The notes below the pieces were generated by a model. The model ran no database searches, was not told the origin of the DNA, and saw only the letters and a program-made list of their open reading frames with translations. Shown one piece after another: positions 8,221 to 25,954 of a DNA stretch of 25,954 bases. Source of the DNA: a virus. The stretch covers positions 1 to 25,954 of the IMG/VR virus record IMGVR_UViG_3300032523_000495. The stretch is one strand, 5' to 3'. Position numbers and translations under genes: made by a program. Position 1 is the stretch's first letter. Every line of letters begins with the position of its first letter.

Positions 8221-10686
8221 TTAACGGGTTCCTGGGTTTATTCCGCCGCCAGTGGAAACTGAAAATTTCTCGCCGGTGACGATTTCTGCGGTAGCGAGGC
8301 GCATTGCGGTGTCGTTGTCAGCTGTATTCATACGCTCGCGCGCAGCAATCTCTGCGGCGGTGCGTTCGTTTTCCGACATCTGCCGCAGCTGCTCTTGACG
8401 CAAGCGTTCGTCGCGCTCGACTTGATTTTCGGACAGCTTTTGGCCTTCGGTCTGGGCTTGTTGCGCGAGACGCGCCTGATCGCTCTGAGCGCGTTGCTGG
8501 ATGGCGGCTTGTTGGACTTGTGCGCCAAGTTGAGCCACTTGCATGGTGTTGTCGGGCGGCATCGGCGGCTGCGGCTTGAACTGCTCTGCGGCTTGAGTCA
8601 GTTGCGCAAGCTCGTCAGCAAAGCCGCCAAGCTGTTGCTCGATGAACTGCTGAACTTTCAAGATGACTTTGACCTGTTCACGCGCTTCATCGCCAATAAG
8701 CTGTTGATTTTCAGCTTTTTGCACGGCTTCGTGCGCTTCGGTGAGGTAGTAATTCAAAAGATGATCACGCAAATGCAACGCGATGGGGTAAAGGTACGTT
8801 TTTGTGATCGCCGGGTTCATGCCGAACAGCGGCGACTTCAAAAACGCTACGTGCGTTTGGATGTGAGCCATGTGATCTTGTTTCGGCAACACGTAAACAG
8901 GCCTGCCCATGGTTGCAGCCACGTTTTCTGAGACGGGATCGACGTCGTCCTTGCCCGGTTCAGACGTTAGCACATCTTTTTGAGGAACTTTCAGCGTTTC
9001 GAGGAACATTTCCTCAATTTTGCGTTGATCATACATGTTCGGCACCATCGCCGCACGCTGCATGAGCGCTTGAATTTTAGCAAAGCGCTGCGCTTCTGAG
9101 AAAATGGCCGGATCAGAGACCGGCGACACATCCAAAGGACCATCAAAGTCTTCGGGCTTGATGTCTACGCCAGCATCGTAACCTTCAATCAGCTCATCGG
9201 TGAGGTAAGCGCTGTTGATGCGGTGCAAGATCTTGAACGCACGCGCCATGGAGTTGTGCAGCCGCGAGTGGATCGAGCTGAAAACCACCATGCCCTGCTC
9301 GATGAGCGCCAAGGTCGTGCCGACAGGCTGGTTTACGCTCTGGTCGGAGAGCTTTTCGAAAGAAGTCTGGACAACACCTTTGCCCGCATCAACCAAAAAG
9401 CCCAACAGCTGGAACAAAACTGCGCTAGGCTGATTGAACGGCATGGGCATGACGAGCTTGCGGATGTCATCGACGAGCGCGCCACCTTCGATTTCCGCCA
9501 CCTCGGTGGGTTGCAAGTTGAGCGTCTGACCGTTGGGCCCACCCTTGAGCTTCAACAGCGTCGGGATGTTTTGGATGTGCGCTGAATCCAACAATGCGCG
9601 CAATGCGCCCGTGGCCGCGCCGCTCAACCCGCCGATCATGTGCGTCAGGCCGATGGGATATGCGCCGCGCCAGGGCACAAACGGAAACTCAACAATCCAC
9701 TCCAGCTCTTTGCGCTGCGCGTCTTTAGGCTCCCAGTTGCGATACAAGCTCAACGCTTTGCCGGAGCTCTTGTCGATTGAGAGGATGTAAGGTTCTACGC
9801 CATCATCAAAATCGAGGTGCGTGTAGATCTCGAACACGGCGCGCAAACCATCTTCGTTGTAGGCGACGTCTTTGCGACCTTCGATCTTGTCGTTGGCTCG
9901 GGAGGCTTTGCTGAACTCGAGCTCGCCAGGTTGACCAACGTCCACCTCCCGGTACATCCCCGACTTCACGCGCCGGTTGAATTCCATCTTCGTGACGTAT
10001 TGCACGTGGGTCTTGCGTTCAGCGGAATAGAAATTGGTGGCGGCGAACGGCAAGTAAATATCATCGATCGCAATGAACTCGCTGCAGGGACGCTTCCACT
10101 GCGCATTCCACATCAGCTTAAGATATTGACCGCCGCCCAACGGCAGCTGTGTGCTGAGCTGTTCAAGCTCAGAACGGAACTCAGACATTTGTTCGGTGGC
10201 CTGCCAGTTCATGAACTCGGTCTTGCGGCGCGCGCGGTCGACCTTTTCTTTTTCCTGGGTGCCGTAGATTTTGGACTTAACAGGGCCTGTGGGAGGGAAA
10301 ATCTCCTTCATGAACCGCGCGCTGAAGTCCACGCAAGCTTCAACCAACATCGGGTGCACGACCTTGTTCGCGCCGCTGAACTGCGCGCCGCCGGGCGCAT
10401 CGTCGCCGAGCCCTGTGCGACGCAAGCCTTCTTCATATTGCTTGTCGCGCTTTTCGCGAGCTTCTTTGTCCTTGTCAATCTTTTCGAGTAGTTCCTGAAC
10501 AGCCTCATTGAGCATGCCAGGATCAACCTCGTCAACGATGTTGGCGAAGTGCGCCAGGTGTTGCTCGGCGTCGTTTTCGTTATCCAGCTTAATCAAAGCG
10601 CCGCCATCTTCCGTATCCTCAACATCAGAGGCTTCCTCTTCCAGCTCTATCAGGTCGCCTTCTGGTTGTGCGTCAGGTTCAGACAT
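8221..10686 (-). CDS. portal protein (821 aa)
   Basis: The portal dodecamer is the vertex through which DNA enters the head. I start at ATG 10686, which has AGAGGATTTCC just upstream and overlaps the previous gene by 8 bases; the reading frame extends 17 codons further but without such a site. The N-terminal 100 residues are acidic. The core includes GANKVVHPMLVEACVDFSAR, SGMYREVDVGQPGELEFSKA, PFVPWRGAYPIGLTHMIGG and ALRALLDSAHIQNIPTLLKL, a pattern of large portals of short-tailed and some other phages. The region around LLGFLVDAGKGVVQTSFEKL is probably the wing/stem helix. The last 180 residues are Gln/Ala/Glu-rich coiled coil (barrel). The size is at the upper end for portals. Its position after terminase and before scaffold is standard. 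Confidence 0.85.
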   Translation of the reverse strand: MSEPDAQPEGDLIELEEEASDVEDTEDGGALIKLDNENDAEQHLAHFANIVDEVDPGMLNEAVQELLEKIDKDKEAREKRDKQYEEGLRRTGLGDDAPGGAQFSGANKVVHPMLVEACVDFSARFMKEIFPPTGPVKSKIYGTQEKEKVDRARRKTEFMNWQATEQMSEFRSELEQLSTQLPLGGGQYLKLMWNAQWKRPCSEFIAIDDIYLPFAATNFYSAERKTHVQYVTKMEFNRRVKSGMYREVDVGQPGELEFSKASRANDKIEGRKDVAYNEDGLRAVFEIYTHLDFDDGVEPYILSIDKSSGKALSLYRNWEPKDAQRKELEWIVEFPFVPWRGAYPIGLTHMIGGLSGAATGALRALLDSAHIQNIPTLLKLKGGPNGQTLNLQPTEVAEIEGGALVDDIRKLVMPMPFNQPSAVLFQLLGFLVDAGKGVVQTSFEKLSDQSVNQPVGTTLALIEQGMVVFSSIHSRLHNSMARAFKILHRINSAYLTDELIEGYDAGVDIKPEDFDGPLDVSPVSDPAIFSEAQRFAKIQALMQRAAMVPNMYDQRKIEEMFLETLKVPQKDVLTSEPGKDDVDPVSENVAATMGRPVYVLPKQDHMAHIQTHVAFLKSPLFGMNPAITKTYLYPIALHLRDHLLNYYLTEAHEAVQKAENQQLIGDEAREQVKVILKVQQFIEQQLGGFADELAQLTQAAEQFKPQPPMPPDNTMQVAQLGAQVQQAAIQQRAQSDQARLAQQAQTEGQKLSENQVERDERLRQEQLRQMSENERTAAEIAARERMNTADNDTAMRLATAEIVTGEKFSVSTGGGINPGTR

Positions 10687-13198
10687 GGAAATCCTCTTTG
10701 AATTTGTTGGCGAGCGCCGTGATCGCACCGAGGTCATAGGTCACCAAGCCACCTTGAGCGAAGCCTTGCGTGATTTGTTTGGCGAGTTGATTGATGGCGT
10801 GCGGATCGTAAGTCACCAAGCCGCCCTGGGCGAAATCACCCTCCTGCAGTTGATCCAGGTCGAGGAACTTCAGGAACTGCCCACGCGTCATGAAGCGTGG
10901 CGTTTCAGGAGATGCCTTGTCGAGCGCTTCAGTCAGCTCAAAACGAGCGATGTCTTGGTCGTCTGCATTTTCATAAATGTCGTCTATATAATGCCTTATT
11001 GAGCGCGGATTTTTCAAATCAACAATGTTGTATTGATCTAGGTCCTTGACGTGGTGCCAATCACCTTTGTTGAGGAAGTTGACCACCGAGTCGGTGACTT
11101 TGATCCTGTATTGCGGATCACGTTTGGCGTATGTTTGTGCTTGGGCGCTTTCGAAGCTGTTGCCGGGTGGTTTGATCTGTTGGATGTCCGGCCCAAAACC
11201 CTTTTCGCCAGCTTCCTTCAAGGCTTGAAGGACTTGGCCGTCAGTCAATTCGTCGTCAACATCCGGGTTGCGTCGCCGCCATTGCATGACGTGTTCTCTG
11301 TACCGCGCCAGGGTTTGGCCAGAAAGTGTTTTTTTGTAATCACGAGAGCTAAAATCAGGCACATCAATTTCATGAATTTGCACTTGCACGTGCGGGCGAC
11401 CGTCTGCGTCTAGCAGCGTTGTAAGGCGGCTGTCGCCTGACCCATAATCCCTTGCAGCAGAAGGCGCTTGTGTGCACCAACCACCAGCCTTGCCGATGGA
11501 CGTGCAAGCCTTCACCCCTTTTTCGCTCGTTGTGTCAGCAACGTCGATCCAAGTGCCGCCGGGCTTTTCGACGAACGACAGTTGCAGCGCATCATCCTTC
11601 AAGCGCGGCGCAGCAGCAAGGTTTTCCATCATGCCTGCGCGCTCTGCTTTGGCGGCTTCAGCGGCGCGGTACTTGTTGATCTTGTTGACGAGCACAACAG
11701 CTTGCGGCGTCGTTACGTTGTCGAGCTTTTCGGGGGTAAGCCGCAGGTGCGCAGGCAAGGTGCTGGTGGGGTCGACGGCGTTCCTGAGCTCGTCGACAAG
11801 ATGTTCGAAACCTAAATCTTTGACATCTGGTATATGATAAACATTGGTCCCTGGCGGAAGGTTTTCCAACCAAGGATTGTCTGCGAGGGTTGAACTGCGT
11901 ACTGGGAAACCTATTCCCGTCGTGAAAGGTTCTGTTCCATAATCTGACCAGTCCTCCCAACGGCGAGCAAGATCTGATTCGCCCAGGCCTTCTTCGGGTT
12001 TGCCAACTTCTTTACGGAAACGCCTGGCTATGCCGTGAACCATGTTTTGGTCTGGCGACGGATCATAATGCAACACGCCTTTTTCAGCGAGCGCGCGCAC
12101 GGGATCTTCGGGCGTGGCCATTTCGTTGCGAATGTATTTGGTGAGCTTTGTGTCGACCCAACGATCGACAGCCGCCTCGCGCCGCGTCTCGGCGAGAAGG
12201 CGCTCAACTGTAGGCCTGGATCCTGGGGACAAGGTCGGATCCTGCAAAAGAGCTTCGTGGCGAGGAATGCGTTGCGCTGGCGTTTCACCCACAGTGGTCG
12301 GCGTTTTTAACCGCGCAACAGCATTCTCAATTGAACCTTTGAACCAATTCCCACCCTTGTCCTTCACGGCACGCTGAATGAAACCTGCATCGTCATAGCG
12401 CTGGCGCAACGCATCATAAGCCGAATCGTCTGGCACCTGCGATGCTGCGCGGTTGATGGCGCGGCGAGCAGAAGCGGCGGCGATGTCGTCGGCGACCTTG
12501 GTTGCGCCATAGCTGGCGGCAGCAGGCGCAAAGACACGGAGCTCAGGTATGAGCACATCGGGCAACGCTGCAACATCTCGTGCCAGTTGATCGCCGGTGC
12601 CCAGGTTGCGCCGCACGACGTCCGGGAGCTTGGGTGCGAGCTCGTCGTATGCCGCGCCTGCCGCTGTGCCTGCGCCAGCAAACATCGCTGGCACGGCGCG
12701 CAACGCTGCATCACCCGCCGCCACGGACGGGCTGACCACGTACTTGTTAAGCATGCCAACAAGCCCTGGCGTTTCAAGTTGCTGCTTCAGCTCTGGCGAC
12801 AAGCCGACTGGTCGCTCGCCGAAAGCCTCTTTGGCGGAAGCTGCGAGTCTTGAAAGCAACCAGGCTTTAGCTTCTTCGCTTTTGTCCTCGCTCCCGCCCG
12901 GAACGCGAGGAGCTGCGTCCACCACGCCACCTTCAGCCCACTTTACCTTGTTGGCCCAGTAAGCCGCGCTGCTTGGACCCTTGGCGATGTTCTTGGCGTG
13001 GCGAGACTTGAATGACTTGCGGCGCTTGCGGTAAGATTCAGATTCACCTTCTTTCTTCGGTGAACCACTGACACCTTGTTGACCGAAGCGCACAAGCTTC
13101 TCCTTGCCATCGGTGCAAGCCTTGACGACATGCGAAGACTTTGGGTGGCTCGGCGTGCGTTGCGGCGTGTTGCACTTCAATGAGTCTTTGTCGGCCAT
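10679..13198 (-). CDS. large multi-module phage protein (839 aa) with GGWCTQ motif and C-terminal repeats
   Basis: I start at ATG 13198 (MADKDSLKCN); the frame extends 12 codons further but into the preceding small gene. Module 1 (residues 1-80) is a basic Cys/Lys/Arg-rich segment with KLVRFGQQGVSGSPKKEGES and SRHAKNIAKG, a unit I know as a free-standing small protein in other phages. Residues 80-560 are mostly helical and Ala-rich. Module 3 (about 555-610) has CTSIGKAGGWCTQ followed by YGSG and LLDADGRPHVQVQI. This resembles the Cys/Gly layout of PcfJ-like or polyvalent-protein domains, a guess only. The C-terminus has two copies of FAQGGLVTYD 24 residues apart (residues 789 and 813). It lies between terminase and portal, suggesting an internal virion protein that may be injected (inference). 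Confidence 0.7.
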   Translation of the reverse strand: MADKDSLKCNTPQRTPSHPKSSHVVKACTDGKEKLVRFGQQGVSGSPKKEGESESYRKRRKSFKSRHAKNIAKGPSSAAYWANKVKWAEGGVVDAAPRVPGGSEDKSEEAKAWLLSRLAASAKEAFGERPVGLSPELKQQLETPGLVGMLNKYVVSPSVAAGDAALRAVPAMFAGAGTAAGAAYDELAPKLPDVVRRNLGTGDQLARDVAALPDVLIPELRVFAPAAASYGATKVADDIAAASARRAINRAASQVPDDSAYDALRQRYDDAGFIQRAVKDKGGNWFKGSIENAVARLKTPTTVGETPAQRIPRHEALLQDPTLSPGSRPTVERLLAETRREAAVDRWVDTKLTKYIRNEMATPEDPVRALAEKGVLHYDPSPDQNMVHGIARRFRKEVGKPEEGLGESDLARRWEDWSDYGTEPFTTGIGFPVRSSTLADNPWLENLPPGTNVYHIPDVKDLGFEHLVDELRNAVDPTSTLPAHLRLTPEKLDNVTTPQAVVLVNKINKYRAAEAAKAERAGMMENLAAAPRLKDDALQLSFVEKPGGTWIDVADTTSEKGVKACTSIGKAGGWCTQAPSAARDYGSGDSRLTTLLDADGRPHVQVQIHEIDVPDFSSRDYKKTLSGQTLARYREHVMQWRRRNPDVDDELTDGQVLQALKEAGEKGFGPDIQQIKPPGNSFESAQAQTYAKRDPQYRIKVTDSVVNFLNKGDWHHVKDLDQYNIVDLKNPRSIRHYIDDIYENADDQDIARFELTEALDKASPETPRFMTRGQFLKFLDLDQLQEGDFAQGGLVTYDPHAINQLAKQITQGFAQGGLVTYDLGAITALANKFKEDFHV

Positions 13199-13202
13199 GG
13201 TG

Positions 13203-13367
13203 CTACTTCTTGCGCGCGGCGCGCATGTTGTCAACGAGGTTGGGGTATGGTCGTCCTGCTGCCTTGGCGGTCGTTTTGGCTGAGGACTTAGCCTTTGAAC
13301 TCAGCTTCTTGGGTTCGTCAAGAGACTTCGGACGAGCTTTGTCCCAGATCGGTTTCTTAGCTTGCAT
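13203..13367 (-). CDS. small basic protein overlapping the terminase end (54 aa)
   Basis: The ATG at 13365-13367 lies 11 bases inside the end of the large terminase gene, and the stop TAG is at 13203-13205, five bases before the next gene. The product (MQAKKPIWDKARPKSLDEPK, ending NLVDNMRAARKK) is highly basic with many Lys, Ala and Ser. It has a histone-tail-like middle (KLSSKAKSSAKTTAKAAGRP) and no hydrophobic core. Basic proteins of this size in the packaging region could bind DNA or the large terminase, but this is inference. The exact fit between the two larger genes supports it being real. Confidence 0.6.
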   Translation of the reverse strand: MQAKKPIWDKARPKSLDEPKKLSSKAKSSAKTTAKAAGRPYPNLVDNMRAARKK

Positions 13368-14928
13368 AAGGGTTCACTCTTTGACGCGGCTTGACTTGCG
13401 GTTCATCTGGATCTTTTGCCTTGGGCAATTCGAACCAGCCTTCGTTTTTAAGGAAAATGATCGCTTGGGTGAAAGTGTCCACGTAATCGTCGTGTTCGGC
13501 AACAGGAAATTTGTCGAGTTGTTTTAAAAATGGCAATGCCCAAGTCACGGGTTGGCCGAGATTCTTGCCGCTCTCCGGCACCCAAACGAATCCGAGCTCA
13601 AGTGTTGGCGCAGCTTGGTGTGCTCGCGAGACCTTGTCGGCGTTGCCGGGATTGTAGCCCACTGCAGGAACGCGCGCAAGACGCAGATCCTGCAACAGCG
13701 ACTGTCCGCTGGCTTTTGCTTCAACCAACACGCGGTCAGGTCGGCGCGCGCGGTTGAATGCATCCTTCTTGCTGGGGCCGCCATACTCGGTCTGCCAATC
13801 TTTGATCGCGCGCGCACGCAGCTCTGGGTACGTCAAGTGCTCATCCCATGCATCAATCAGCAGCACGTTGCGCCGACCTTCGTGCGTGAACACGGCATAA
13901 ACGCTGCAAGCTGTTGGATCGCCGCTGGTTTTCTCGGTGAATGCGCAGTCATAGCTCTGCATGATGTATTCAAACTGAGGTAGCGCCTTGATCGCTGGCC
14001 ACAGCTTCACGTGCTTGGTCTTGAGGATGCCGCCCTCGGCTGGCTTGGGATCTTGCTGCAGCTGACCAGCAGCGCCATACACACCCAGCAATTGCTTGAG
14101 CTCTGTGACTTCCTTTTCGCCGAATCGCTCTGGGCAGATCAACTGACCTTTGATTGCGCGCGGATCGTATGAACCCAAGCCCGTCTTGCGACGCACACCA
14201 TCCCACTCTGCCGGTATGCAAAGGTGCTCCCAACCGCCAATGTCCTCAAGGATGTGACCGCTGATGTCGGCTTCATGCAAGCGCTGCATGATGGTGATCA
14301 TCGCGTCGCGCTTGGGATCATTCAATCGTGTTGACCAAACGACATCAAACCACTCCAACGCACTTCCGCGCATCACGTCAGATTGAGCCTCTTGCGCGCT
14401 GTGCGGATCGTCGAGGATGAGCCGCGAGCCGCCTTCGCCAGTTGCCGTACCGCCCACAGACGTTGCGAGCCGGTAGCCGGTCTTGTCGTTTTCAAAGCGC
14501 TGCTTGGCATTCTGATCACCAGAGAGAGAGAACAAGTGACCCCAACGCTCCTGGTACCAAGGGCTCTGCACGAGCCGCCGCGCCTTCAAATTGTCGCGGA
14601 TTGAAAGCACGCCGCTGTAAGATGCACAGAGGTACTTCTCCTGTGGTCGCGCCAGCCACTCCCAAATCGGAAACATAACACTCACAATGGTCGACTTGGA
14701 GTGTCTTGGTGGGATGTTGATCAACAGCTTGCGAATCTCGCCAGAGGTGATCGCTTCAAGGTGTTCACAGATCGCTTCGATGTGCCAGCTGGCAATGAAC
14801 GGCACACCCGGCTCAACGATCGGCCATGCTTGCCGCACAAAATCATAAAGCGATGAGCCGGCAACGCGACGCTCACGCTCACGCTTCACAGCTTCGATCA
14901 GTGTTGCTTGTGAAACGATTGCGTTCAT
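13357..14928 (-). CDS. terL: terminase large subunit (523 aa)
   Basis: This is the ATP-driven DNA packaging motor and headful or cos nuclease. The ATPase domain has an adenine-binding region before residue 70, Walker A PPRHSKST at 73-80, Walker B LILDDP at 170-175, and a coupling segment near 205-225 (DAMITIMQRLHEAD). The RNase H-like nuclease domain follows, with SYDCAF (D327), LVEAKASG (E403) and EHDDYVDT (D480, D481, D484) as likely metal-binding acidic residues. Length is normal for the family. The ATG at 14926-14928 comes one base after the stop of the small-subunit gene, typical of coupled terminase genes. The packaging strategy (cos, pac or direct terminal repeats) cannot be read from the sequence here. 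Confidence 0.95.
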   Translation of the reverse strand: MNAIVSQATLIEAVKRERERRVAGSSLYDFVRQAWPIVEPGVPFIASWHIEAICEHLEAITSGEIRKLLINIPPRHSKSTIVSVMFPIWEWLARPQEKYLCASYSGVLSIRDNLKARRLVQSPWYQERWGHLFSLSGDQNAKQRFENDKTGYRLATSVGGTATGEGGSRLILDDPHSAQEAQSDVMRGSALEWFDVVWSTRLNDPKRDAMITIMQRLHEADISGHILEDIGGWEHLCIPAEWDGVRRKTGLGSYDPRAIKGQLICPERFGEKEVTELKQLLGVYGAAGQLQQDPKPAEGGILKTKHVKLWPAIKALPQFEYIMQSYDCAFTEKTSGDPTACSVYAVFTHEGRRNVLLIDAWDEHLTYPELRARAIKDWQTEYGGPSKKDAFNRARRPDRVLVEAKASGQSLLQDLRLARVPAVGYNPGNADKVSRAHQAAPTLELGFVWVPESGKNLGQPVTWALPFLKQLDKFPVAEHDDYVDTFTQAIIFLKNEGWFELPKAKDPDEPQVKPRQRVNPYAS

Positions 14929-14929
14929 A

Positions 14930-15325
14930 TCACTGCGTAGCTTTCGCCAGCAATGATTGAATCTGATCGAGCTCGGCGTCCGACAGACCTTTCATGTCAA
15001 CAGAAGCAACGTTGATTGGTCCGCCGTTCGCGCCAGTGAGCTCGCTGCGCGCCAGCTTGGGAACGTGATACTCGACCACACCTTGAAAAAGATTGAACGC
15101 CTTTTCAGGATTCGGCGGAACAAGCCACTCGAGATTACCGTCGTCATCGATCAGCTGTGTGCCGCTCGCATCGCAGCGAGCAACGCCATCCGCAACGCGG
15201 TCCAACCAATCTTGCAGACGGTGCGCGTTGTCATCGACAAAGTCCGCAATCGCCGCGCGCGCTTCTTTTGTCAAGCGATTGGGAGAGCCGGGAGGACGAC
15301 CGCCGCCCATCCTTTTGGTGTTCAT
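14930..15325 (-). CDS. terS: terminase small subunit (131 aa)
   Basis: It recognises viral DNA for packaging and recruits the large subunit encoded directly downstream. The N-terminus has GGGRPPGSPNRLTKEARAAI, the 'GRP.GS.N..T..aR' opening common in small terminases and related DNA-binding proteins. It is followed by helices (FVDDNAHRLQDWLDRVADG, KAFNLFQGVVEYHVPKLARS) that should form the oligomerisation core. The C-terminal acidic helix (LSDAELDQIQSLLAKATQ) probably contacts the large subunit. The ATG at 15325 follows GGAGAAGAACA on its strand, and a strong promoter with repeats lies in the upstream gap. Identification rests mainly on the motif plus position before the large subunit. Confidence 0.8.
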   Translation of the reverse strand: MNTKRMGGGRPPGSPNRLTKEARAAIADFVDDNAHRLQDWLDRVADGVARCDASGTQLIDDDGNLEWLVPPNPEKAFNLFQGVVEYHVPKLARSELTGANGGPINVASVDMKGLSDAELDQIQSLLAKATQ

Positions 15326-15368
15326 TGTTCTTCTCCAAAAAGCATTTAATATTCTGCTTCAACTCGCG

Positions 15369-15398
15369 ATTATAGCCGCAATCTTTCTGTTTAGGCAA
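15369..15398 (-). promoter_or_regulatory. strong promoter for the packaging and morphogenesis operon
   Basis: On the minus strand TTGCCT (15393-15398) is followed after 18 bp by a perfect TATAAT (15369-15374). Transcription would begin near 15361, about 36 bases before the small terminase ATG. The repeat cluster starts only 7 bp upstream of the -35 box, where an activator or repressor would sit. Confidence 0.65.
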
Positions 15399-15404
15399 CA
15401 CTTG

Positions 15405-15588
15405 ATCCCAAGTTCCGAGATGCCCAAGATTTCCTATTCTTCTCTCCTCTCTAATTAAGTAAACTTAACTTTTATTATCCAACAATTACTATCTTGGGAT
15501 TTTTGGGATTTTCTTCAATCTCGGGTACGGAAATCCCGAGATGCCCGAGGCATAGTCTGACGCGGCTCCGATCCCAAGAAGTCCCAAG
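15405..15588 (+). repeat. cluster of ATCCCAAG-like octamers, some in helical-turn spacing
   Basis: The 264-bp gap between helicase and small terminase carries about nine copies of (A/G)TCCC(A/G)AG or close variants. Forward copies are at 15405-15412, 15421-15428 (TGCCCAAG), 15533-15540 and 15542-15549 (CCCGAG forms), 15571-15578 and 15581-15588. Inverted copies are at 15493-15500, 15502-15509 and 15520-15526. Several neighbours are 9-10 bp apart, about one helical turn. An AT-rich tract (about 15430-15490) separates two groups, and CTCGGG/CCCGAG (15520-15540) can form a hairpin. It could be iterons of a replication origin beside the helicase and primase genes, or an operator of the adjacent promoter. 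Which one is inference. Confidence 0.65.
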
Positions 15589-15589
15589 A

Positions 15590-17077
15590 TCACTTTTTAG
15601 CATTCAGCGGCACCACTTTTGCGTCATCACCTTGTTGTTGCGCCAAGAGCCATTCCCCTCTGACCCGGACCAGCTCGGTCGCCTCGTTGATGTCACGCGT
15701 CAGCTCCCCACGCACAAATGCGTAACGTGCACGCAGTGTCTTGCCGTCTTTGCGGAACACCCACCGATCAGCGCCGCCTGGCGCTGGCACGTTCACGTAC
15801 CCAGCGCGATTCATGCGGTGCGCAATCTTGCGCGGCGACTTCAGCATGTTTGCGACCTCTTCATGGTTATCGAATTGTGGGATGATTAGTTCTTGCCCCA
15901 GCACAACCGCAGGTTTGCCAAGATGATCAATAACCCAAGCCACGGCATCTTCCGGCTCGCCCCAGCTCGCCGCAACCGCTCCCCAACCAGCGGTCCTGGC
16001 GACTTGCGCCTTGGGATCGAACGCTGCCAAGTCCCGCGCCCCCAGCCAAGCTGCCACGTGGCCCACGCCGCCGCTCTCGAACCAATTGAACAGGTCCGTG
16101 AAGTAGCCGGGGTTGCCCTCCACCTCATGCCATTTTTGCGCGAGGTGCGAATGCATTATGAACATGCGCCGATCTTCTGGCGGGATATACATGCTCAACC
16201 AATCATTCGTAGTGATGAACACGCGCAACCGATTGATGATGTGCCGCAGCTTTGCGTACTTATCATTGAGCGGCAACGTGTCTGGCGGCGCAACGATCAT
16301 CGGCTTCAAGATGTTGTAAGCCGAGCTGGCATGAAATTCATCCTTGTTGGGCCGCACTTCATCAATCACGAGCATCAACGTCTCCAGCCACGGCTTGTAG
16401 GGGCTGAACAGCTCGTCGGGATCTATGTTCTTGGCATTCCAAGTACCCACCGCCGCTCTGACCGGCATCAATGCCGCGTCTTTACCGATGCCTTGTGTGC
16501 CGCTCAGCACCACGGCTGCATTGCATTTTATCTCTGGGTGTTGCACCATGAACGCACAGAAGTCGAAAAAGTAAGAGTGCTCCTGCACGTCTGGCCAGAG
16601 CTTCTTGATGTGGTTGACCCAAACAAACGCTTGTGCGGCGTCGCCATTGAGCTTGGGTGGCGGCATGTACTTGTTGTAAATTCTCCGCCCTATTGCATTG
16701 CGCCATCCATTGGAATCAATAAACACGTCGCGGATGATTTGCGGTTCACCAGGCCACCAAGTGCTGCCTTCCACAAACTGATCGTTTTCCACGCGCATGA
16801 TGTCGCGGCTCGGCTGAATCAACCGTTCACGCCGCCGCCGCGCAGGACGCCCGACCTCTTCTTCGCCACCTTCTTGCACTTCCAATCGCCAAAGCTCGAG
16901 TGGTATGGAGGCATCTACTGCTTTTTCGGAATGTTGAGTGCCATCCCTCAAATCCCAAAACGCTTCTTGCGCTTTGTCGAACACGTAGTCATCAGGTCGC
17001 GCCAACCGCCGCGCGTTGTTGACTGCTTCTTGCAAAGCAACTTCTCTTGCCGCTGTACGCTCTTCGATTGTTGTCAT
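15590..17077 (-). CDS. superfamily 3 replicative helicase, phage/plasmid primase-helicase type (495 aa)
   Basis: It probably unwinds the viral origin and fork together with the primase encoded just upstream. I start at ATG 17077, whose ATGA overlaps the primase stop; the open frame goes further back but only inside the primase gene. Residues 1-130 are an N-terminal accessory region with a basic stretch near 78-90 (RPARRRRERL). The SF3 ATPase follows: Walker A SGTQGIGKD at 192-200, Walker B LMLVIDEVRP at 234-243, motif C RVFITTND at 285-292, and an Arg-finger-like EDRRMFI at 301-307. The C-terminal 120 residues carry a winged-helix-like segment (NHEEVANMLKSPRKIAHRMN). The domain belongs with the DUF5906/P4 alpha C-terminal group. 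It ends at the repeat-rich gap. Confidence 0.88.
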   Translation of the reverse strand: MTTIEERTAAREVALQEAVNNARRLARPDDYVFDKAQEAFWDLRDGTQHSEKAVDASIPLELWRLEVQEGGEEEVGRPARRRRERLIQPSRDIMRVENDQFVEGSTWWPGEPQIIRDVFIDSNGWRNAIGRRIYNKYMPPPKLNGDAAQAFVWVNHIKKLWPDVQEHSYFFDFCAFMVQHPEIKCNAAVVLSGTQGIGKDAALMPVRAAVGTWNAKNIDPDELFSPYKPWLETLMLVIDEVRPNKDEFHASSAYNILKPMIVAPPDTLPLNDKYAKLRHIINRLRVFITTNDWLSMYIPPEDRRMFIMHSHLAQKWHEVEGNPGYFTDLFNWFESGGVGHVAAWLGARDLAAFDPKAQVARTAGWGAVAASWGEPEDAVAWVIDHLGKPAVVLGQELIIPQFDNHEEVANMLKSPRKIAHRMNRAGYVNVPAPGGADRWVFRKDGKTLRARYAFVRGELTRDINEATELVRVRGEWLLAQQQGDDAKVVPLNAKK

Positions 17078-18000
17078 TGGGCGGCTCTTTCTAATTCTTC
17101 GATCGATTGTTCGTTGACCCAATCCGTCAAGTTGGCCCAACCATTTGCAGCGCAATGGCCGTGATGGCAGCGGAATGCACCGTAATAATCGTTCTCGGCG
17201 GCAGGTTCACGGATGGCAGCGCCGTTGTCAACACCGCCGCCGTGATCGTCTTTCCATGGGCAGCTCATTTCTGTCCAGCCGCTCAGATCTGGCTCGTGCT
17301 TCTTGAGCATGTTGTGCTGGTCAAGCCACTTGTGAATTGTCGCGAACATGCGATTGCGCTCAATCGCTTCTTCGCTCGGGAGTTTTTCCCGATTGACCCT
17401 GCGCCCCATGATCTTGAGCTGGAAGCCGTCCAACAGCTCTTGCGGCGTCCAGCGCGAGCCGTTGTGTTCCGCTGTGCGCGTTGTCCAACCGCCGTAAGCT
17501 TTCTTGCCGTTGAGGTGTCCGGGCAACCTGCCGACGCGCGTCACGCCACTCATGCCAGGATCAGCGCCCAACAACTTGCCAGAGATGAATGCGCGGATGA
17601 GCCCATCAAAGCGCGCCATGTCACGCTCTGGCTCGTGCAAGAAATACCACCACTGCTCGTTGCCTGGCGATGTTTCGATCTTCCAGGTTGGCTGCATGGC
17701 GTCCACGAACGCTCGATCCACCTTGGTGCCCACGTCGTCCACCATGAGCGCGCAACCAGCGCTGAACGTCTCGGTGCGGCGGCGGTAGGTGCCATCCTGA
17801 GCGCGGCGGAACGCGCCCACCGTGACGTATGCATTTTGGTCGGCGGTGAAGGGCACCTGCTCGCCGGGCCGCCACGGTAGGGGTCGCCAAGCCGTTGGCC
17901 CTGCTTGGTGCGGGTCACCAGGAAACCCACACAAAATTAGCCGTTCGTCGTCGTCCAAGCCTCGGCCCAGGTCGACCAAAAAGTCCACAGATTCGCTCAT
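17074..18000 (-). CDS. DNA primase, RepB-like archaeo-eukaryotic primase fold with zinc ribbon (308 aa)
   Basis: It should make primers for phage DNA replication. Residues 60-165 hold the AEP-type core: a metal-binding CALMVDDVG (D88, D89), ETSPGNEQWWYFL at 109-121 in the place of the small-residue/His motif, and VGRLPGHLNGKK at 156-167, the 'RlPGt.N.K' signature of RepB-like primases. The C-terminal part has C247, H253 and a CHHGHC cluster at 278-283, which looks like a zinc-binding element. The ATG at 18000 has CAGAAAGGA upstream (18005-18013), the same element used by the rightward genes. It lacks its own helicase domain, which is supplied by the next gene; many phages have both in one polypeptide. 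Confidence 0.85.
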   Translation of the reverse strand: MSESVDFLVDLGRGLDDDERLILCGFPGDPHQAGPTAWRPLPWRPGEQVPFTADQNAYVTVGAFRRAQDGTYRRRTETFSAGCALMVDDVGTKVDRAFVDAMQPTWKIETSPGNEQWWYFLHEPERDMARFDGLIRAFISGKLLGADPGMSGVTRVGRLPGHLNGKKAYGGWTTRTAEHNGSRWTPQELLDGFQLKIMGRRVNREKLPSEEAIERNRMFATIHKWLDQHNMLKKHEPDLSGWTEMSCPWKDDHGGGVDNGAAIREPAAENDYYGAFRCHHGHCAANGWANLTDWVNEQSIEELERAAQ

Positions 18001-21070: not shown

Positions 21071-21538
21071 ATGCCCACAATCATTCGTGATCGTTCCGCT
21101 GTGCGCGGAGCTCAAATTGAAGATCTCAATCACACATACGGTCAACTCAGCAACGATGCCGGTTTCAAAGGGTTCAAGTCGCGCGCGGCAGCGGAGGTGC
21201 AAGTTGACATGCTGCTTTCAAAAATAAATCCATTTCAAGAGGGTACGATGAGTCACAAATTGCACGAAGAAATTTCTAATCAAAAACCCATCGAGCCGCG
21301 TTCTGAAAGCAGCGAAGCGCGGAAGCGCGTTGTCGTCCAGCGCGTGATGGCCACGTTCACAGGTGAATCCAAGCCGCAGACAGGCTCCCTGCGCAATCAG
21401 ATCTTGCTGTTCATTCAGCAGTGTGAAAACCACACCTGCACAGCCAAAGAGCTGCAAGAGCAATTCAAGCAACCCATTCGCGGTCACTTGCAAAAGCTGA
21501 TCGAAAAGCATCATCTCGTTACGATTGAAGAAAAATGA
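21071..21538 (+). CDS. putative regulator with C-terminal winged-helix-like domain (155 aa)
   Basis: The ATG at 21071 has AAGGACAATCAAA upstream. The N-terminal 50 residues contain LNHTYGQLSNDAGFKGFKSR followed by AAAEVQVD, similar in layout to the 'FADRKTAERRV' motif of the gene at 19844. A polar linker follows. The C-terminal 50 residues (SLRNQILLFIQQCENHTCTA; KELQEQFKQPIRGHLQKLIE) resemble a winged-helix or HTH domain as in DNA-binding regulators. The stop overlaps the next start (ATGA). Assignment is pattern-based, so a DNA-binding role is inference. Confidence 0.6.
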   Translation: MPTIIRDRSAVRGAQIEDLNHTYGQLSNDAGFKGFKSRAAAEVQVDMLLSKINPFQEGTMSHKLHEEISNQKPIEPRSESSEARKRVVVQRVMATFTGESKPQTGSLRNQILLFIQQCENHTCTAKELQEQFKQPIRGHLQKLIEKHHLVTIEEK

Positions 21539-22443
21539 GCAATTCGCCAACAATCGTTGGGGCTGGATTGGCGGGACTTGTGGCTGCGCATGCGTGGCCA
21601 CAAGCTCCGGTGTTCGAAGCTTCAGCCGCGCCGCGCGCCGGGCACAAGGCATTGTTGCGGTTCCGCACCGACGCTGTGAGCCACCTTGTGGGCATTGAAT
21701 TCCGCAAGGTTCGCGTTCACAAAGGCATTTGGGCTGATGGCGCTTTTCAAGCACCTTCAATCTTGTGGGCCAACAATTATGCCCAAAAGGTTTTGCAAGG
21801 TCGACTGCGCGGCGACCGTTCCATTTGGGAAATTGATCCCGTTGAGCGGTTCATTGCGCCGGACAATCTTTATGAACAGCTGATTGATGCCGTGGGCAAC
21901 CGTGTGCGTTGGGATTCGCCTGTTGATTTCGCTGACAGCAAATCACCAATCATTTCCACCGCACCGCTGACTGTGGTTTTGAAAGCGCTGAACATCGCCG
22001 CGCCGGTAGAATTTCCGCGCGCATCGATACGTGTTGTGCGCTGGAAAATTAGCAACTGCGATGTGTTTCAGACAACGTACTTCCCAGAGCCTTGGCTCAA
22101 TGTTTATCGCGCGTCGATCACGGGCGACAAATTAATTGTTGAATCCGTCGGCGAGCTCACGGAAGACGACACATATGAAGTTGGTCGCGCATTCGGCATT
22201 CGTCTAGAGGAAAATCAATTTTTGGAAAGCATTGATCAAAAGTATGGTAAGATTGCTTCGATTGATGATGCCGTACGCAAGCAGTTGCTGTTCACGTTGA
22301 CGCACAATCACAACATCTATTCGCTTGGGCGCTTTGCAACGTGGCGCAACATCTTGTTAGACGACGTTGTCAACGACGTCGTTGCTATCAAGCGCTTGTT
22401 GAAAACCAACAGCGCATACGACGCGCGCAAGGCAGCAACATGA
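21535..22443 (+). CDS. FAD/NAD(P)-binding oxidoreductase-like protein, UDP-galactopyranose mutase/amine oxidase-type fold (302 aa)
   Basis: The N-terminus carries a Rossmann dinucleotide-binding loop GAGLAG (residues 9-14) and an acidic residue at the end of strand 2 (VFEAS, E29) for ribose binding, the hallmark of FAD-binding GR2-type flavoproteins. The middle, with DNLYEQLIDAVGNRVRW, and the end, with IYSLGRFATWRNILLDDVVN, resemble the C-terminal 'GR.a.wr' FAD contact of UDP-galactopyranose mutase-like enzymes. The substrate domain is shorter than usual (about 370-400 aa for that group). The ATG overlaps the previous stop, and the next gene overlaps in the same way, so it is part of one unit with the NrdR-like and ThyX genes. 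Substrate unknown. Confidence 0.7.
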   Translation: MSNSPTIVGAGLAGLVAAHAWPQAPVFEASAAPRAGHKALLRFRTDAVSHLVGIEFRKVRVHKGIWADGAFQAPSILWANNYAQKVLQGRLRGDRSIWEIDPVERFIAPDNLYEQLIDAVGNRVRWDSPVDFADSKSPIISTAPLTVVLKALNIAAPVEFPRASIRVVRWKISNCDVFQTTYFPEPWLNVYRASITGDKLIVESVGELTEDDTYEVGRAFGIRLEENQFLESIDQKYGKIASIDDAVRKQLLFTLTHNHNIYSLGRFATWRNILLDDVVNDVVAIKRLLKTNSAYDARKAAT

Positions 22444-22934
22444 AGTGTTCTTTTTGTGGAGCGGACAGCCGTGTGACTGATCGCAAGGTTCTGCCTGAAA
22501 AACACTGCGTCGTGGTGCATCGCGCGTGCACCCGGCAACACCGCTTCATGACGGCTGAAGTTTACATCTCGCAACTTGCGGATGCGCGCGAGATGAGTTG
22601 CGCGGTGCGCAACATCACACGGCGTATTCAGCGTTTTCAACGCGACATGGCCATTGCATCAGACGCGCGTCCAGTGCGTGACGTGGCTGAAACCTTCAAC
22701 TTGACAGAAACGCGCGTGCGTCAGATTTGTTCGGTAATGAGACCCTTGCTTAAAATTTCAAAGCGGAAGAAGATAATTAAACTCAGAAAGGAAACGGCTA
22801 ATGAAAGCAACACTGGTAAGTTTTACTCCGGAAGCAAAGGAGTTGTTAATCTTCACCAAGTCCACAAGGCTCACCATGAGTCCCGGCTTGATGAACGAAA
22901 TTCGCGCTTGGCCCGAGGAAAGAAAGCTCGCTGA
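22440..22934 (+). CDS. zinc-ribbon plus helix-turn-helix protein, NrdR-like N-terminus (164 aa)
   Basis: The ATG overlaps the flavoprotein stop as ATGA (22440-22443). Residues 1-42 (MKCSFCGADSRV, RACTRQHRFMTAEVY) match the NrdR zinc ribbon 'M.CPFCG...RV.D...........C..C...F.T.E', but the second CxxC is reduced to a single Cys (C30), leaving His34 as a possible ligand. The ATP-cone domain of true NrdR is absent. Residues 78-104 (RPVRDVAETFNLTETRVRQI) look like a sigma-region-4-type helix-turn-helix. The last 44 residues overlap thyX in another frame by 134 bases, so the true functional end may be near residue 120. A transcription-factor role, perhaps over nucleotide genes, is inferred. Confidence 0.65.
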   Translation: MKCSFCGADSRVTDRKVLPEKHCVVVHRACTRQHRFMTAEVYISQLADAREMSCAVRNITRRIQRFQRDMAIASDARPVRDVAETFNLTETRVRQICSVMRPLLKISKRKKIIKLRKETANESNTGKFYSGSKGVVNLHQVHKAHHESRLDERNSRLARGKKAR

Positions 22935-23520
22935 ATTAGAATACATGGCCAACACGATCCCCAGCAGCTGGGAATTTGTTGACTACGTATTCATGATTGA
23001 AGGTGTGAGCCGCGCGTTCACCCATCAGTTTGTTCGCTCCCGCCAAGGTTCTTACGCGCAACAAACCATGCGCGTGCTCAACATGGGTGAGTACGATTAC
23101 GTCATGAGCGAGCGCGTCCACGCCAACATACAAGCGCGCGGTTTGGTCGACATCATCAACCAAAACATACGCTCTGTTTACAATCAACTCGTCGCGATGG
23201 GTCTTCCCGCCGAAGACGCACGCGGCATCCTGCCCACCAACATCGCCACCAACATCGTTGCTAAGTTCAACTTGCGCGCGTTTGTTGATCTGGCCAAGAG
23301 CCGCACAGGCGGACGCACGCAAGGCGAATATCAAGCCGTCATGAACGCCATGGTGGATGAAGTTCTCAAGGTTCACCCTTGGGTAGAAAAATTCATGTTC
23401 CAACAAGGACGTGATTACTTCGCCGCAATCGAGCAGTTTGCCGAGGAAGAGTATGGCGGCGACCTGCTTAAAAAGGGTCGGTTGCTGAAGATAGTCGACA
23501 AGATGCGCAAAGGAGAGTGA
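22801..23520 (+). CDS. thyX: ThyX-type flavin-dependent thymidylate synthase, variant (239 aa)
   Basis: Canonical ThyX methylates dUMP to dTMP using FAD, NADPH and methylenetetrahydrofolate. The ATG at 22801 lies eight bases after CAGAAAGGA (22784-22792). The N-terminal strand (ATLVSFTPEAKELLIFTKST), the helix EFVDYVFMIEGVSRAFTHQF, and GLPAEDARGILP (135-146) and NLRAFVDLAKSR (157-168) fit the family. The signature is altered: where most ThyX have RHRxxSxNExSxRY, this protein reads RSRQGSYAQQTMRV (79-92). Arg79, Arg81, Ser84 and Arg91 are kept, but His becomes Ser, the Asn-Glu pair becomes Ala-Gln, and the final Tyr becomes Val. Downstream, the usual LRxxxHAQxE appears as SRTGGRTQGE, with His replaced by Arg. 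It may act on another pyrimidine or with another donor. Confidence 0.85.
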   Translation: MKATLVSFTPEAKELLIFTKSTRLTMSPGLMNEIRAWPEERKLAELEYMANTIPSSWEFVDYVFMIEGVSRAFTHQFVRSRQGSYAQQTMRVLNMGEYDYVMSERVHANIQARGLVDIINQNIRSVYNQLVAMGLPAEDARGILPTNIATNIVAKFNLRAFVDLAKSRTGGRTQGEYQAVMNAMVDEVLKVHPWVEKFMFQQGRDYFAAIEQFAEEEYGGDLLKKGRLLKIVDKMRKGE

Positions 23521-23523
23521 GTC

Positions 23524-23673
23524 ATGAAATACTTATGCATTGATGGTCCTTTTTCTGGCCACAAACTCTGGTTGCGTTCCGGCGGACACACCTTGGCTTT
23601 CAGCTTGCGCGGCTTCACGGGTCGGTATGTGCCGGTAGGCGTGGACCAAGTTCGTTGGGAGAGCCATTCATGA
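23524..23673 (+). CDS. small protein of unknown function (49 aa)
   Basis: The ATG at 23524 lies just after the ThyX stop (AGGAGAGTGAGTC upstream gives a good site), and the TGA at 23671-23673 overlaps the next ATG. The product starts MKYLCIDGPFSGHKLWLRSG and ends RYVPVGVDQVRWESHS. It is beta-rich and polar, without a membrane segment. Placement between thyX and the glycosylase gene with coupled stop/start supports translation. No family recognised. Confidence 0.6.
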   Translation: MKYLCIDGPFSGHKLWLRSGGHTLAFSLRGFTGRYVPVGVDQVRWESHS

Positions 23674-24035
23674 CGCGCATCAATTGTGTGCCGCCGAAGG
23701 AGCTTTCGCGCCAGCACCTACTGGCTGAATACCGTGAGCTGCCGCGTGTGTTCAAGTTGGCGGCGGAAGCCTTCCGGCGCGGCACCAAGGTCGTTGCGCC
23801 TGCTCAATACACATTGGGCACTGGCCACGTCAAGTTCTTTTATTCCCGGCTGGCTTATTGCGCAGCGCGGTTCCAAGCGTTGCGCGCGGAAATGTTGTGC
23901 CGAGGGTACAAGCCGCATTACGATCATCCGCCGCCGGTCAACGTCGGCCAGGAGTGGTGGCAAGACTGGTTGCCAACCGCTGCCGCTCTCGACGTGAACC
24001 GCCGCCGGATTTTAGAAAGGACAATTCAAAAATGA
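23670..24035 (+). CDS. denV: pyrimidine dimer DNA glycosylase / AP lyase, T4 endonuclease V-like (121 aa)
   Basis: It should cut UV-induced cyclobutane pyrimidine dimers by base excision. Residues 1-28 align closely with T4 DenV: MTRIN, then ELSRQHLLAEYRELPRVF. The N-terminal Thr2 (whose amino group attacks the sugar after Met removal) and the catalytic Glu23 are both present, as are Arg3, His16, Arg22 and Arg26. YTLGTGHVKFFYSRLAY matches the T4 'ILGAGHVTFFYDKLEF' stretch. It is 121 aa versus 138 in T4 and stops before the region matching the aromatic WYKYYG tail, which contributes to dimer binding. The start at 23670 overlaps the preceding stop; the stop overlaps the next start. Confidence 0.9.
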   Translation: MTRINCVPPKELSRQHLLAEYRELPRVFKLAAEAFRRGTKVVAPAQYTLGTGHVKFFYSRLAYCAARFQALRAEMLCRGYKPHYDHPPPVNVGQEWWQDWLPTAAALDVNRRRILERTIQK

Positions 24036-24520
24036 CCAAGTTCATTATCGTTGATTTAGACAATTGCATCGCTGACGATGCCTGGCGCATTCCTAAAATC
24101 AATTGGAGCAAGCCGACGCCAATAGCTCGCTATCATGATTACCATTCGTTGAGCGGTTTTGATGAAATTGGCAACCTCCGCATTTTCGACGAGCACGCTG
24201 ATTGTGGGCTAATTATCTTCACTGCGCGCCCAGAGCTTTATCGGGCGCTCACACACGAATGGCTGACGCGGCGCGGCGTACCTTACGAACGGCTTTTCAT
24301 GCGTGGCAACGAGGATCATCGCGATTCGATCGAATTGAAGCGCACGATGGTGCTTAACTTGCCAGAATTTTATTATGACATAGCGCTCGAAGACATCGCG
24401 GCTGCGTACGATGATAGGCAAGACGTGGTGGATATGTATCGCTCTTACAAAATAACAGCACATCGACTTGAAATTCACAATGTGTGTGCATACACGCCGC
24501 CGAAAAGGGAGGTCGCATGA
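24032..24520 (+). CDS. HAD-superfamily hydrolase, polynucleotide 3'-phosphatase / nucleotidase-like (162 aa)
   Basis: Motif I is FIIVDLDNCIADD (D8, D10) at the N-terminus. Motif II is LIIFTARPELYR with the Thr, motif III the Lys in IELKRTMV, and motif IV probably the acidic YDDRQDVVDMYRS. FMRGNEDHRDSIELK is like the 'MR...d.R.d...K' segment of T4 PseT-type 3'-phosphatases. The kinase half of PseT is absent, so a stand-alone phosphatase acting on nucleotides or DNA 3' ends is likely. The ATG follows TAGAAAGGA (24013-24021), and it is coupled to denV upstream and the MazG-like gene downstream by overlaps. DNA repair (3' end cleaning after DenV) and nucleotide salvage are both plausible. Confidence 0.8.
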   Translation: MTKFIIVDLDNCIADDAWRIPKINWSKPTPIARYHDYHSLSGFDEIGNLRIFDEHADCGLIIFTARPELYRALTHEWLTRRGVPYERLFMRGNEDHRDSIELKRTMVLNLPEFYYDIALEDIAAAYDDRQDVVDMYRSYKITAHRLEIHNVCAYTPPKREVA

Positions 24521-24807
24521 ACACAGCCGCAGACATTTTGGCCGAGATGGCCGACACCTACCGTGAACGCAACAAGGTTTACGGCGACAACTACAAGCTC
24601 GTAGGTGACGTTATGATGGCGCTGTTTCCTAACGGTGTGAAATTGGAAACGGCGGAACAATTCAACATCTGGCACTTGTTTGAGTTGATTGTAGTCAAGA
24701 TTACGCGCTTCGCCAACAGCGAGTTGCAGCACGAAGATTCAATTCACGATTTGGCGGTTTATGCCGCCATGGTAGAGTCATTGATCAGAAAGGAAAATAA
24801 ACAATGA
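24517..24807 (+). CDS. MazG-like nucleotide pyrophosphohydrolase-related protein (96 aa)
   Basis: I start at ATG 24517, which has the strong AAAAGGGAGGTCGC site and overlaps the HAD stop; a start 11 codons earlier has none. The sequence is all helical with ERNKVYGDNYKLVGDVMMAL and FNIWHLFELIVVKITRFANS. It ends HEDSIHDLAVYAAMVESLIR. The ordered Glu, His and Asp (H, E-D, H-D) on two helices fit the alpha-helical NTP pyrophosphatase-like fold of phage proteins that I group with MazG-like/DUF6378. It might remove unwanted dNTPs. Whether all metal ligands are present is uncertain. The stop overlaps the next start. Confidence 0.7.
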   Translation: MNTAADILAEMADTYRERNKVYGDNYKLVGDVMMALFPNGVKLETAEQFNIWHLFELIVVKITRFANSELQHEDSIHDLAVYAAMVESLIRKENKQ

Positions 24808-25484
24808 GCAAGATATTAGTCACTGGTGCCGGAGCAGGATTAGGCAAACACATTTGTCAAGCCTTGCGACGCTATGGCCAGGATGTTTTTGAATTCGACC
24901 GCAAGCGCGGCCACGATGTTCGTGACCCCAAAGAAACTCTTGGGCCGCCGCCATCGGGTTTGGATGTTTTGATCAATTGTGCAGGCATCAACAAGACCGC
25001 CTGGCTTGAAAATCTCGCTGAATCCGAATGGGACGAGGTGATGGACATCAACGCAAAGGGCATCTTCAAAATGACCCAATGGGCGCTGCCCGAGCTGATC
25101 ACGTCGCGCGGCACCGTTCTCAACATAATTTCCAATGCATCGCACATGCCGATGACCACGAGCTTGGCTTACAACGCCTCCAAAGGCGCGGCGCACATCA
25201 TGACGCTGCAACTAGCGCGGGAATTGACCAAGAAACACGGCATCACGGTTTTTGGGATCAGCCCTAACAAGTTGCTCGGCACGGAAATGTCCAAAGACAT
25301 CGAGGATCAGGTTGTCAAACATCGCGGCTGGACACCAGAATTCGCAGCGCAATATCAAACCAACGCCTTGTTGGCTGGCGAAGAGACCGACCCCGCCCAG
25401 CTCGCTGAATTTATTTCTTTCATCCTTTCAACCAAGTCGCGTCACAAGTACTTGACCGGCTGCGTCCTGCCGTACGGAGCTTGA
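24804..25484 (+). CDS. short-chain dehydrogenase/reductase (226 aa)
   Basis: This is a complete classical SDR. The dinucleotide-binding loop is TGAGAGLG (7-14), followed by NCAG (58-61), Asn83, Ser110 and YNASK (Tyr123, Lys127), the full catalytic tetrad. The C-terminal SPNKLLGTEM (153-162) replaces the usual 'PG.v.T' segment. It is slightly shorter than the usual 240-260 aa. The ATG overlaps the preceding stop and lies nine bases after CAGAAAGGA (24786-24794). SDRs reduce or oxidise carbonyl groups with NAD(P)H, and the phage substrate is unknown. Its neighbours (ThyX variant, HAD, MazG-like, VOC) suggest nucleotide or cofactor chemistry. Confidence 0.9.
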   Translation: MSKILVTGAGAGLGKHICQALRRYGQDVFEFDRKRGHDVRDPKETLGPPPSGLDVLINCAGINKTAWLENLAESEWDEVMDINAKGIFKMTQWALPELITSRGTVLNIISNASHMPMTTSLAYNASKGAAHIMTLQLARELTKKHGITVFGISPNKLLGTEMSKDIEDQVVKHRGWTPEFAAQYQTNALLAGEETDPAQLAEFISFILSTKSRHKYLTGCVLPYGA

Positions 25485-25486
25485 TC

Positions 25487-25954
25487 ATGAAATTCTTTAT
25501 CGAACAAATTGCTTTGTGTCCACCCAACCCGCAGCTAGCCATCAAAATGCTCAAGGAGCTTGGGTTGGATGATTGGGTGTATGATCACGTGATCGCAGGC
25601 GGCAAGGTTTTCGATGAGCCCGGCAAAAATGAAGCTGACCTGGCGTTCAATTATCAAAATGCGCGTCCAGAAAACAAACCGTTGGAACTTGAAATTCTGC
25701 ATTACACAGCTGGACCAAATTGGATGCAGGGTCGTCCGCCTATGGTTTCGCACTTGGGCATGCATTGCGCCGCTGAAGAGCTGGCCGTGTTCCGCCGCAA
25801 GTTCGCCGACATGGGGATCAGGGTGGCTCAGGAAGTTTTCACAGAGAGCCACACCAATCCGTACTTGCTGGAAGTGCATCGCAAGTATCAGTACGTCATC
25901 TTCGACACGCGCGAGGTGTTGGGTGTAGATCTCAAGTTAATACTTATCATTAAA
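25487..25954 (+). CDS. VOC (glyoxalase-like) protein, N-terminal 156 residues (cut off by window edge)
   Basis: The frame is open from ATG 25487 to the window end with no stop. The first 50 residues (MKFFIEQIALCPPNPQLAIK; LGLDDWVYDHVI) look like the first beta-alpha-beta unit of the vicinal oxygen chelate fold. ELEILHYTAGPNWMQ and VSHLGMHCAAEELAVFRRKF (likely metal-ligand His) fit the second unit, followed by AQEVFTESHTNPYLLEVHRK and YVIFDTREVLGVDLKLI. VOC proteins include glyoxalases and ring-cleaving dioxygenases. The gene starts two bases after the SDR stop, so both likely belong to one pathway. The call rests on pattern. Confidence 0.65.
   Translation, partial: MKFFIEQIALCPPNPQLAIKMLKELGLDDWVYDHVIAGGKVFDEPGKNEADLAFNYQNARPENKPLELEILHYTAGPNWMQGRPPMVSHLGMHCAAEELAVFRRKFADMGIRVAQEVFTESHTNPYLLEVHRKYQYVIFDTREVLGVDLKLILIIK

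Follow-up and report, generated by a model that had tools for sequence, protein, structure and literature searches.

The window analysed here is a virus record of 25,954 bases, incomplete, as are most related contigs, in which a dense cluster of short repeats separates a helicase gene from a terminase-like gene, and the question raised by this locus is what such an element does for the phage. The preliminary description offered two functions, an origin of iteron type and a late operator, of which the first is well supported by comparison and the second, as the main function, is not. Most likely, the cluster is the replication origin of the phage, which the adjacent helicase would open in the manner of the pri-rep-ori of the PICIs and SaPIs.

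Structure of the element

The entire element lies in one intergenic gap (Table 1), bounded by the stop codon of the helicase gene (15590-15592) and the start of the small terminase-like gene (15325). Eight strict CTYGGG sites are found in 184 bp (15407, 15423, 15535, 15544, 15573, and 15583 on the minus strand, 15493 and 15520 on the plus strand), and ten when one mismatch to TCTYGGG is allowed, so that the octamer cluster described previously is real. When this stretch was resampled 5,000 times with a first-order Markov model, CTYGGG occurred 0.24 times on average and at most 4 times, and elsewhere in the window the motif occurs 0.23 times per 184 bp, with an equal count in no other 190-bp stretch. 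The spacings, i.e., 7 and 9 bp (15407/15414/15423), 9 bp (15494/15503), 9 bp (15535/15544), and 10 bp (15573/15583), also bear out the claim that several copies are 9 or 10 bp apart.

Table 1. Coordinates of the element and of the neighbouring genes in the window.
Feature	Position	Strand	Remarks
Intergenic gap holding the entire element	15326..15589 (264 bp)	.	gap aligned in relatives
Outer iteron pair, CTTGGG twice at a 10-bp spacing, next to the helicase stop codon	15573..15588	-	
Iteron palindrome, ATCTCGGG (+) facing CCCGAGAT, with a third iteron (15544-15549) 9 bp further	15518..15549	.	
Inner arm, helicase side: CTTGGGA and TTGGGA at a 9-bp spacing	15493..15508	+	conserved in relatives
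Inner box, helicase side: TAGTAATTGTTGGATAAT (minus strand)	15474..15491	-	TAATTGTT/CTATTTGTT-like in most relatives
AT-rich core, candidate unwinding element	15446..15473	.	sequence drifts, AT-richness kept
Inner box, terminase side: AGAGAAGAATAGGAAA (minus strand), inverted to the first box	15430..15445	-	A[CG]AATAGG(AAA) in relatives
Inner arm, terminase side: CTTGGGC, CTCGGAA, CTTGGGA, in opposite orientation to the helicase-side arm	15407..15428	-	
Sigma-70-like promoter TTGCCT-18-TATAAT, terminase genes	15369..15398	-	1 found, 0.3 expected
D5/SF3-type helicase (DUF5906), candidate self-loading initiator	15590..17080	-	Pfam PF19263
Helicase C-terminal domain	residues 376-484, encoded 15629-15955	-	winged-helix-like topology, model pLDDT 94.5
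RepB-type DNA primase, overlaps helicase start	17077..18000	-	PF16793 E 3e-10; phrog_4861 E 4e-36
Small terminase-like gene directly after the element	14930..15325	-	precedes terL; kept in close, absent from distant relatives
Terminase large subunit	13357..14928	-	phrog_38 E 5e-86
Portal	8221-10737	leftward	

The two inner groups of iterons face each other across the AT-rich tract (approximately 15446-15473), a symmetry which is kept in the relatives; the preliminary description had recognized the tract between two groups, but their opposed and conserved arrangement escaped it. A sequence-blind detector, which searches for two opposed repeat arrays and an AT-rich core, gave the gap a score of 20, with a maximum of 17 in 400 resamples. 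The inverted repeat placed earlier at 15520-15540 does exist, but it has 8 bp rather than 6 bp (ATCTCGGG at 15518-15525 with CCCGAGAT at 15535-15542), and this palindrome is shared with close relatives, such as L005, L010, L017, and L069. A hairpin was considered as the main feature and rejected, given that the conserved pattern consists of the repeats and not of a stem; the strand folds somewhat better than shuffles (z -2.7) because the iterons are inverted. The TATAAT promoter is likewise present beside the last copy, at a distance of 6 bp from the last iteron, and TTGCC...GATAAT is also found in relatives. Everything to the left of 18000 in the window reads leftwards, and Rfam detected no RNA family in 14900-17200.

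Conservation of the element in related phages

The relatives comprise 40 IMG/VR loci obtained through the helicase protein, together with more distant loci reached by helicase alignment. Approximately 40 contigs, whose helicases are as little as 58% identical, share the architecture, and a version in which the iteron letters differ occurs at 44% identity. The order is always two or three iterons 7-10 bp apart, the inner box TAATTGTTGGA, the AT-rich core, the opposing inner box A[CG]AATAGGAAA, and the reversed iterons. The distance from box start to box start is 44-66 bp, and longer in G026; the clearest example is G028 (gacccgagatgcccgagatgcccaaga ... gtcgggcatctcgggcatctcgggtc), and many relatives also present an iteron at the helicase stop codon. 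In the nine closest versions, the mean identity is 0.72 at the iteron positions and 0.55 at the other positions of the stretch, a figure that counts the inner boxes as "other", although these are conserved as well.

The CTYGGG cluster is the sole one in the window and, by a motif-based count, the top or only cluster in nearly every related contig. This count missed G006, G007, and G008, which have differing iterons and were found by the sequence-blind detector; with the iteron sequence not supplied, this detector ranked the element first in all of the 10 test contigs. At 44% helicase identity (L244/G030), CGCCYRAC iterons flank an AT-rich tract after the helicase stop (34844), followed by a terS-like gene, an element that the detector missed, and no comparable element was observed after the helicase of G031 (37% identity).

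A first scan of the viral contigs with the inner boxes alone as the pattern was unspecific, with only nine true loci among the 80 listed. No match to known phages was obtained by blastn, with no cultured close relative found, and a scan of bacterial genomes for the helicase confirmed none, with no host or prophage found. In L002 and L003, an inserted ORF that looks GIY-YIG-like parts the element from terS, and in L004, L013, and L019-L021 a converging ORF of approximately 450 bp is inserted between the helicase gene and the element, which remains on the terS side.

Association with the replication genes

The origin candidate is situated directly 3' of the helicase gene in the window and in most relatives, and its distribution follows the replication module rather than the packaging module. 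The primase, the helicase, ThyX, the HTH-like protein, and further early genes of the window recur in four distant genomes (G006-G009). These genomes also have the element, although no counterpart of a structural or packaging gene of the window was found in any of them. An HNH gene follows the element in G006, G007, G008, and G017, and in the window this place is taken by the small terminase-like gene, which gave no informative profile match. G006 also shares a DnaE-like polymerase, an exonuclease, and an SNF2-type helicase with other group members (L176 11165-18177, encoding the polymerase, PF07733, an RNase_T exonuclease, the SNF2-type helicase, and Pam3 gp32/gp34-like proteins). The polymerase is seen in the relatives and not in the incomplete window, and it forms, together with the RepB-type primase and the D5/SF3 helicase, the set common to the element-bearing phages, which are otherwise unrelated in their capsid and packaging genes. 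The exception is the G010/G011 group, in which the primase and helicase genes have moved to the opposite operon and the element has stayed beside terS, so that the close linkage of the element to the helicase is not absolute.

In the early region of the window (21535-25954), ThyX is accompanied by what appear to be an FAD-dependent oxidoreductase, a short-chain dehydrogenase, and glyoxalase-like proteins, and several proteins of this region are conserved in distant relatives. The HTH-like protein (21071-21538) was found in all four of the distant genomes tested, with 27-41% identity.

The helicase and the iteron sequence

The AlphaFold2 model of the whole helicase is of moderate confidence (pLDDT 70), and its structural matches are headed by the NrS-1 CTR (6lrb, Z 17.1), which a sequence profile also finds (E 6e-7), followed by asfarviral and poxviral D5-type helicases; further matches are the SaPI5 primase-helicase (7ola, Z 12.1), PriRep1 (7pds, Z 10.2), and papilloma E1 (Z 8.7). 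When searched alone, the C-terminal domain has only weak matches to solved structures, with a best Z of 4.9 and winged-helix proteins dominating the list, and the predicted winged helix is thus a reading of the topology of the model rather than an established homology.

The iteron letters differ between lineages, with CTYGGG in most, CTYGGT in G006, G007, and G026, TTCAAGA-like iterons in G008, ACCCGN in G017, and CGCCYRAC in G030, and both arms of any one phage agree in their letters. This shift of the letters as a set on both arms is as expected of sites for a single co-evolving trans-acting protein. The C-terminal domain of the helicase carries the helix SPRKIxHRMxRAGY, whose SPR..xHR core is kept in 23 of the 26 helicases, including relatives at 58-60% identity. 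The three helicases that lack it, L028/G008 (SKRKVGHRM), L026/G017 (APRRFVLRM), and L244/G030 (KGRGFVFRM), are those whose iterons have clearly departed from the CTYGG pattern, which is suggestive, on the strength of three lineages, of a C-terminal domain that binds the iterons. Less favourable are the weak fold matches of this domain and L027, a partial exception in which the iterons are loosened and partly changed and the helix is the usual one.

Probable replication origin and alternative explanations

Replication most likely starts at the element, judging from its anatomy, its conservation, and the analogy with known origins. As the preliminary description had anticipated for an iteron-type origin, the octamers are conserved in the relatives while much else drifts; the element also goes wherever the replication genes go in most of the lineages, and it is laid out like the PICI and SaPI origins. 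In the proposed mechanism, the D5/SF3-type helicase would bind the iterons through its C-terminal domain and assemble into a pair of opposed rings, one on either side of the AT-rich core, which would melt this core and then run outwards. The RepB-type primase would prime the strands thus laid bare, with the two inverted inner boxes as possible start sites, and the DnaE-like polymerase of the phage itself would extend these primers. The displaced helicase genes of the G010/G011 group count against this reading, as does the cumulative GC skew, which has no switch near 15500 or at the element of the relatives, in a test that is weak for phages with long one-way operons.

As a part of the probability given to an origin, the initiator may also be another one, either the HTH-like protein (21071-21538) or a protein of the host, which would occupy the iterons before the helicase is loaded. 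The presence of this HTH-like protein in each of the distant genomes tested counts in its favour as an alternative iteron binder, although it could also be an early regulator. This version is unlikely, given that the SaPI and SCCmec helicases of the same fold group bind iterons via their own C-terminal domain (PMC7581432), and that three lineages with altered iterons have an altered helicase helix as well. No DnaA box, which a classical RepA-type iteron plasmid origin has beside its iterons, was found in 15326-15589, even with one mismatch, which also stands against another initiator.

The position of the element beside terS calls for packaging to be considered, with the iterons as binding sites of the small terminase (a cosB or pac upstream of terS) and the DNA cut in or near the element. 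Short repeats beside terS are typical of cosB, and the element is directly upstream of terS in the close group and stays with it in G010/G011 after the relocation of the helicase. However, the linear contigs G007, G008, and G025, which are HNH-type relatives, start just before terS and end after the HNH gene, 423-603 bp past the element, and the stretch from HNH to terS probably holds their physical ends, or cos site, an argument against a cos site in the element of these relatives. A packaging site is very unlikely in view of this, of the retention of the element in phages whose terminases are non-homologous to that of the window, and of a symmetry around an AT-rich core which is not a cosB feature. 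The late-operator function, in which a repressor or activator on the iterons would govern the terminase promoter and couple replication to late expression, is highly improbable. The window and nearly all of the contigs have a single cluster, with none at other promoters, so that an operator regulon is unlikely, and two opposed arrays around an AT-rich core exceed the needs of an operator. The good sigma-70-like promoter close to the last iteron does favour such control, as does a similar promoter after the element in relatives, but where the packaging genes differ the element precedes an HNH gene, and in these relatives the last iteron is at most a few tens of bp from the HNH start, with no promoter spaced alike. 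A side effect of the element on transcription is possible, given the adjacent terS promoter.

Distribution and significance of the design

These phages may have a self-contained replicon, in which a D5/SF3 helicase that loads itself, a DnaE-like polymerase, and a RepB-type primase that starts at a pair of sites of its own (the inner boxes) act on a PICI-type origin, a broader reading that we propose only tentatively. If it is true, pri-rep-ori is a general phage design in which the satellites share, and not a hallmark of the PICIs. A scan of twelve loci from cultured phages whose D5-like helicases are remote gave nothing in most, with candidate arrays in Curvibacter phage PCA1 and Roseobacter phage RDJL3. 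In PCA1 (L268, OP588919, 3960-4200), the D5-like primase gene is directly followed by AT-rich tracts with GGAACC/GGTTCC repeats in both orientations at their sides. This cultured phage thus has a candidate origin of the same kind, which fits the self-contained replicon. In RDJL3 (L266, OK283305, 6240-6360), an AT-rich stretch has GACTA/TAGTC repeats around it, and the non-coding region in which they lie measures 660 bp and is approximately 2 kb away from the D5-like gene.

The element marks the probable origin in approximately 40 uncultured phage contigs, and the lineages offer a natural series of iteron/helicase pairs. With at least four recognition sequences in this series, the code by which self-loading helicases recognize DNA becomes testable.

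Comparison with known systems

The satellite phage P4 has an alpha protein that acts as primase, helicase, and initiator on short repeated sites; its ori and crr are separate sites, and P4 is compared here at the level of organization. The SV40 large T antigen and papillomavirus E1 are SF3 helicases with opposed sites beside an AT-rich tract and a double-hexamer loading. The window shares with them the SF3 helicase, whose fold matches that of E1, as given above, and the opposed sites by an AT-rich tract, but the origin is bound there by an N-terminal domain (PMC7581432), and the sites have no homology. The Cch2 protein of SCCmec is a helicase related to D5, and its C-terminal domain in isolation binds short iterons at a putative origin, which directly follows the gene that encodes Cch2 (PMC7581432); only three AAGTG iterons were identified there, in a chromosomal cassette.

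The closest solved helicase fold is that of NrS-1, for which the parts of the literature consulted describe two 8-nt primase sites, one per strand, in the middle of the genome, as the suggested origin (PMC7102993, PMC8718748). These paired sites recall the inverted inner boxes and suggest, by analogy, a possible priming role for the latter. On the other hand, the NrS-1 motif is TTTGGTTA, its primase and helicase are fused, and the same parts of these sources report no iteron arrays for it.

In the PICIs, pri and rep are followed by ori, immediately 3' of rep, and sometimes by terS (PMC6092414). As in EcCICFT073 and SaPIbov1, the order here is primase, helicase-initiator, ori, and sometimes terS, with the ori 3' of the helicase gene, two opposed sets of short iterons approximately 10 bp apart that flank an AT-rich region, and a helicase in the fold group of the SaPI5 primase-helicase (SaPI Rep/D5). 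As a control, the EcCICFT073 origin, with TCTACC iterons approximately 10 bp apart in both orientations, was the top match of the detector in its 25-kb region. The differences are the separate RepB-type primase, the DnaE polymerase of the relatives, the unrelated iteron sequence, and the presence of one conserved inner box per side. We know of no counterpart of these boxes in a PICI origin. The phage itself is not a PICI, having capsid and packaging genes of its own; the window has a portal and a terL, and the large related contigs, of 36-58 kb, have their own structural genes, so that these are full-size phages with capsid, portal, and terminase genes, and not satellites. The earlier statement that no such element had been described is therefore right for the sequence, but the architecture was already described for phage satellites, and by all of its visible features the element resembles a PICI origin. 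This layout and gene order, hitherto described from small islands that parasitize phages, are present here in a broad lineage of full-size phages, which bears directly on the origin of the satellite replicons.
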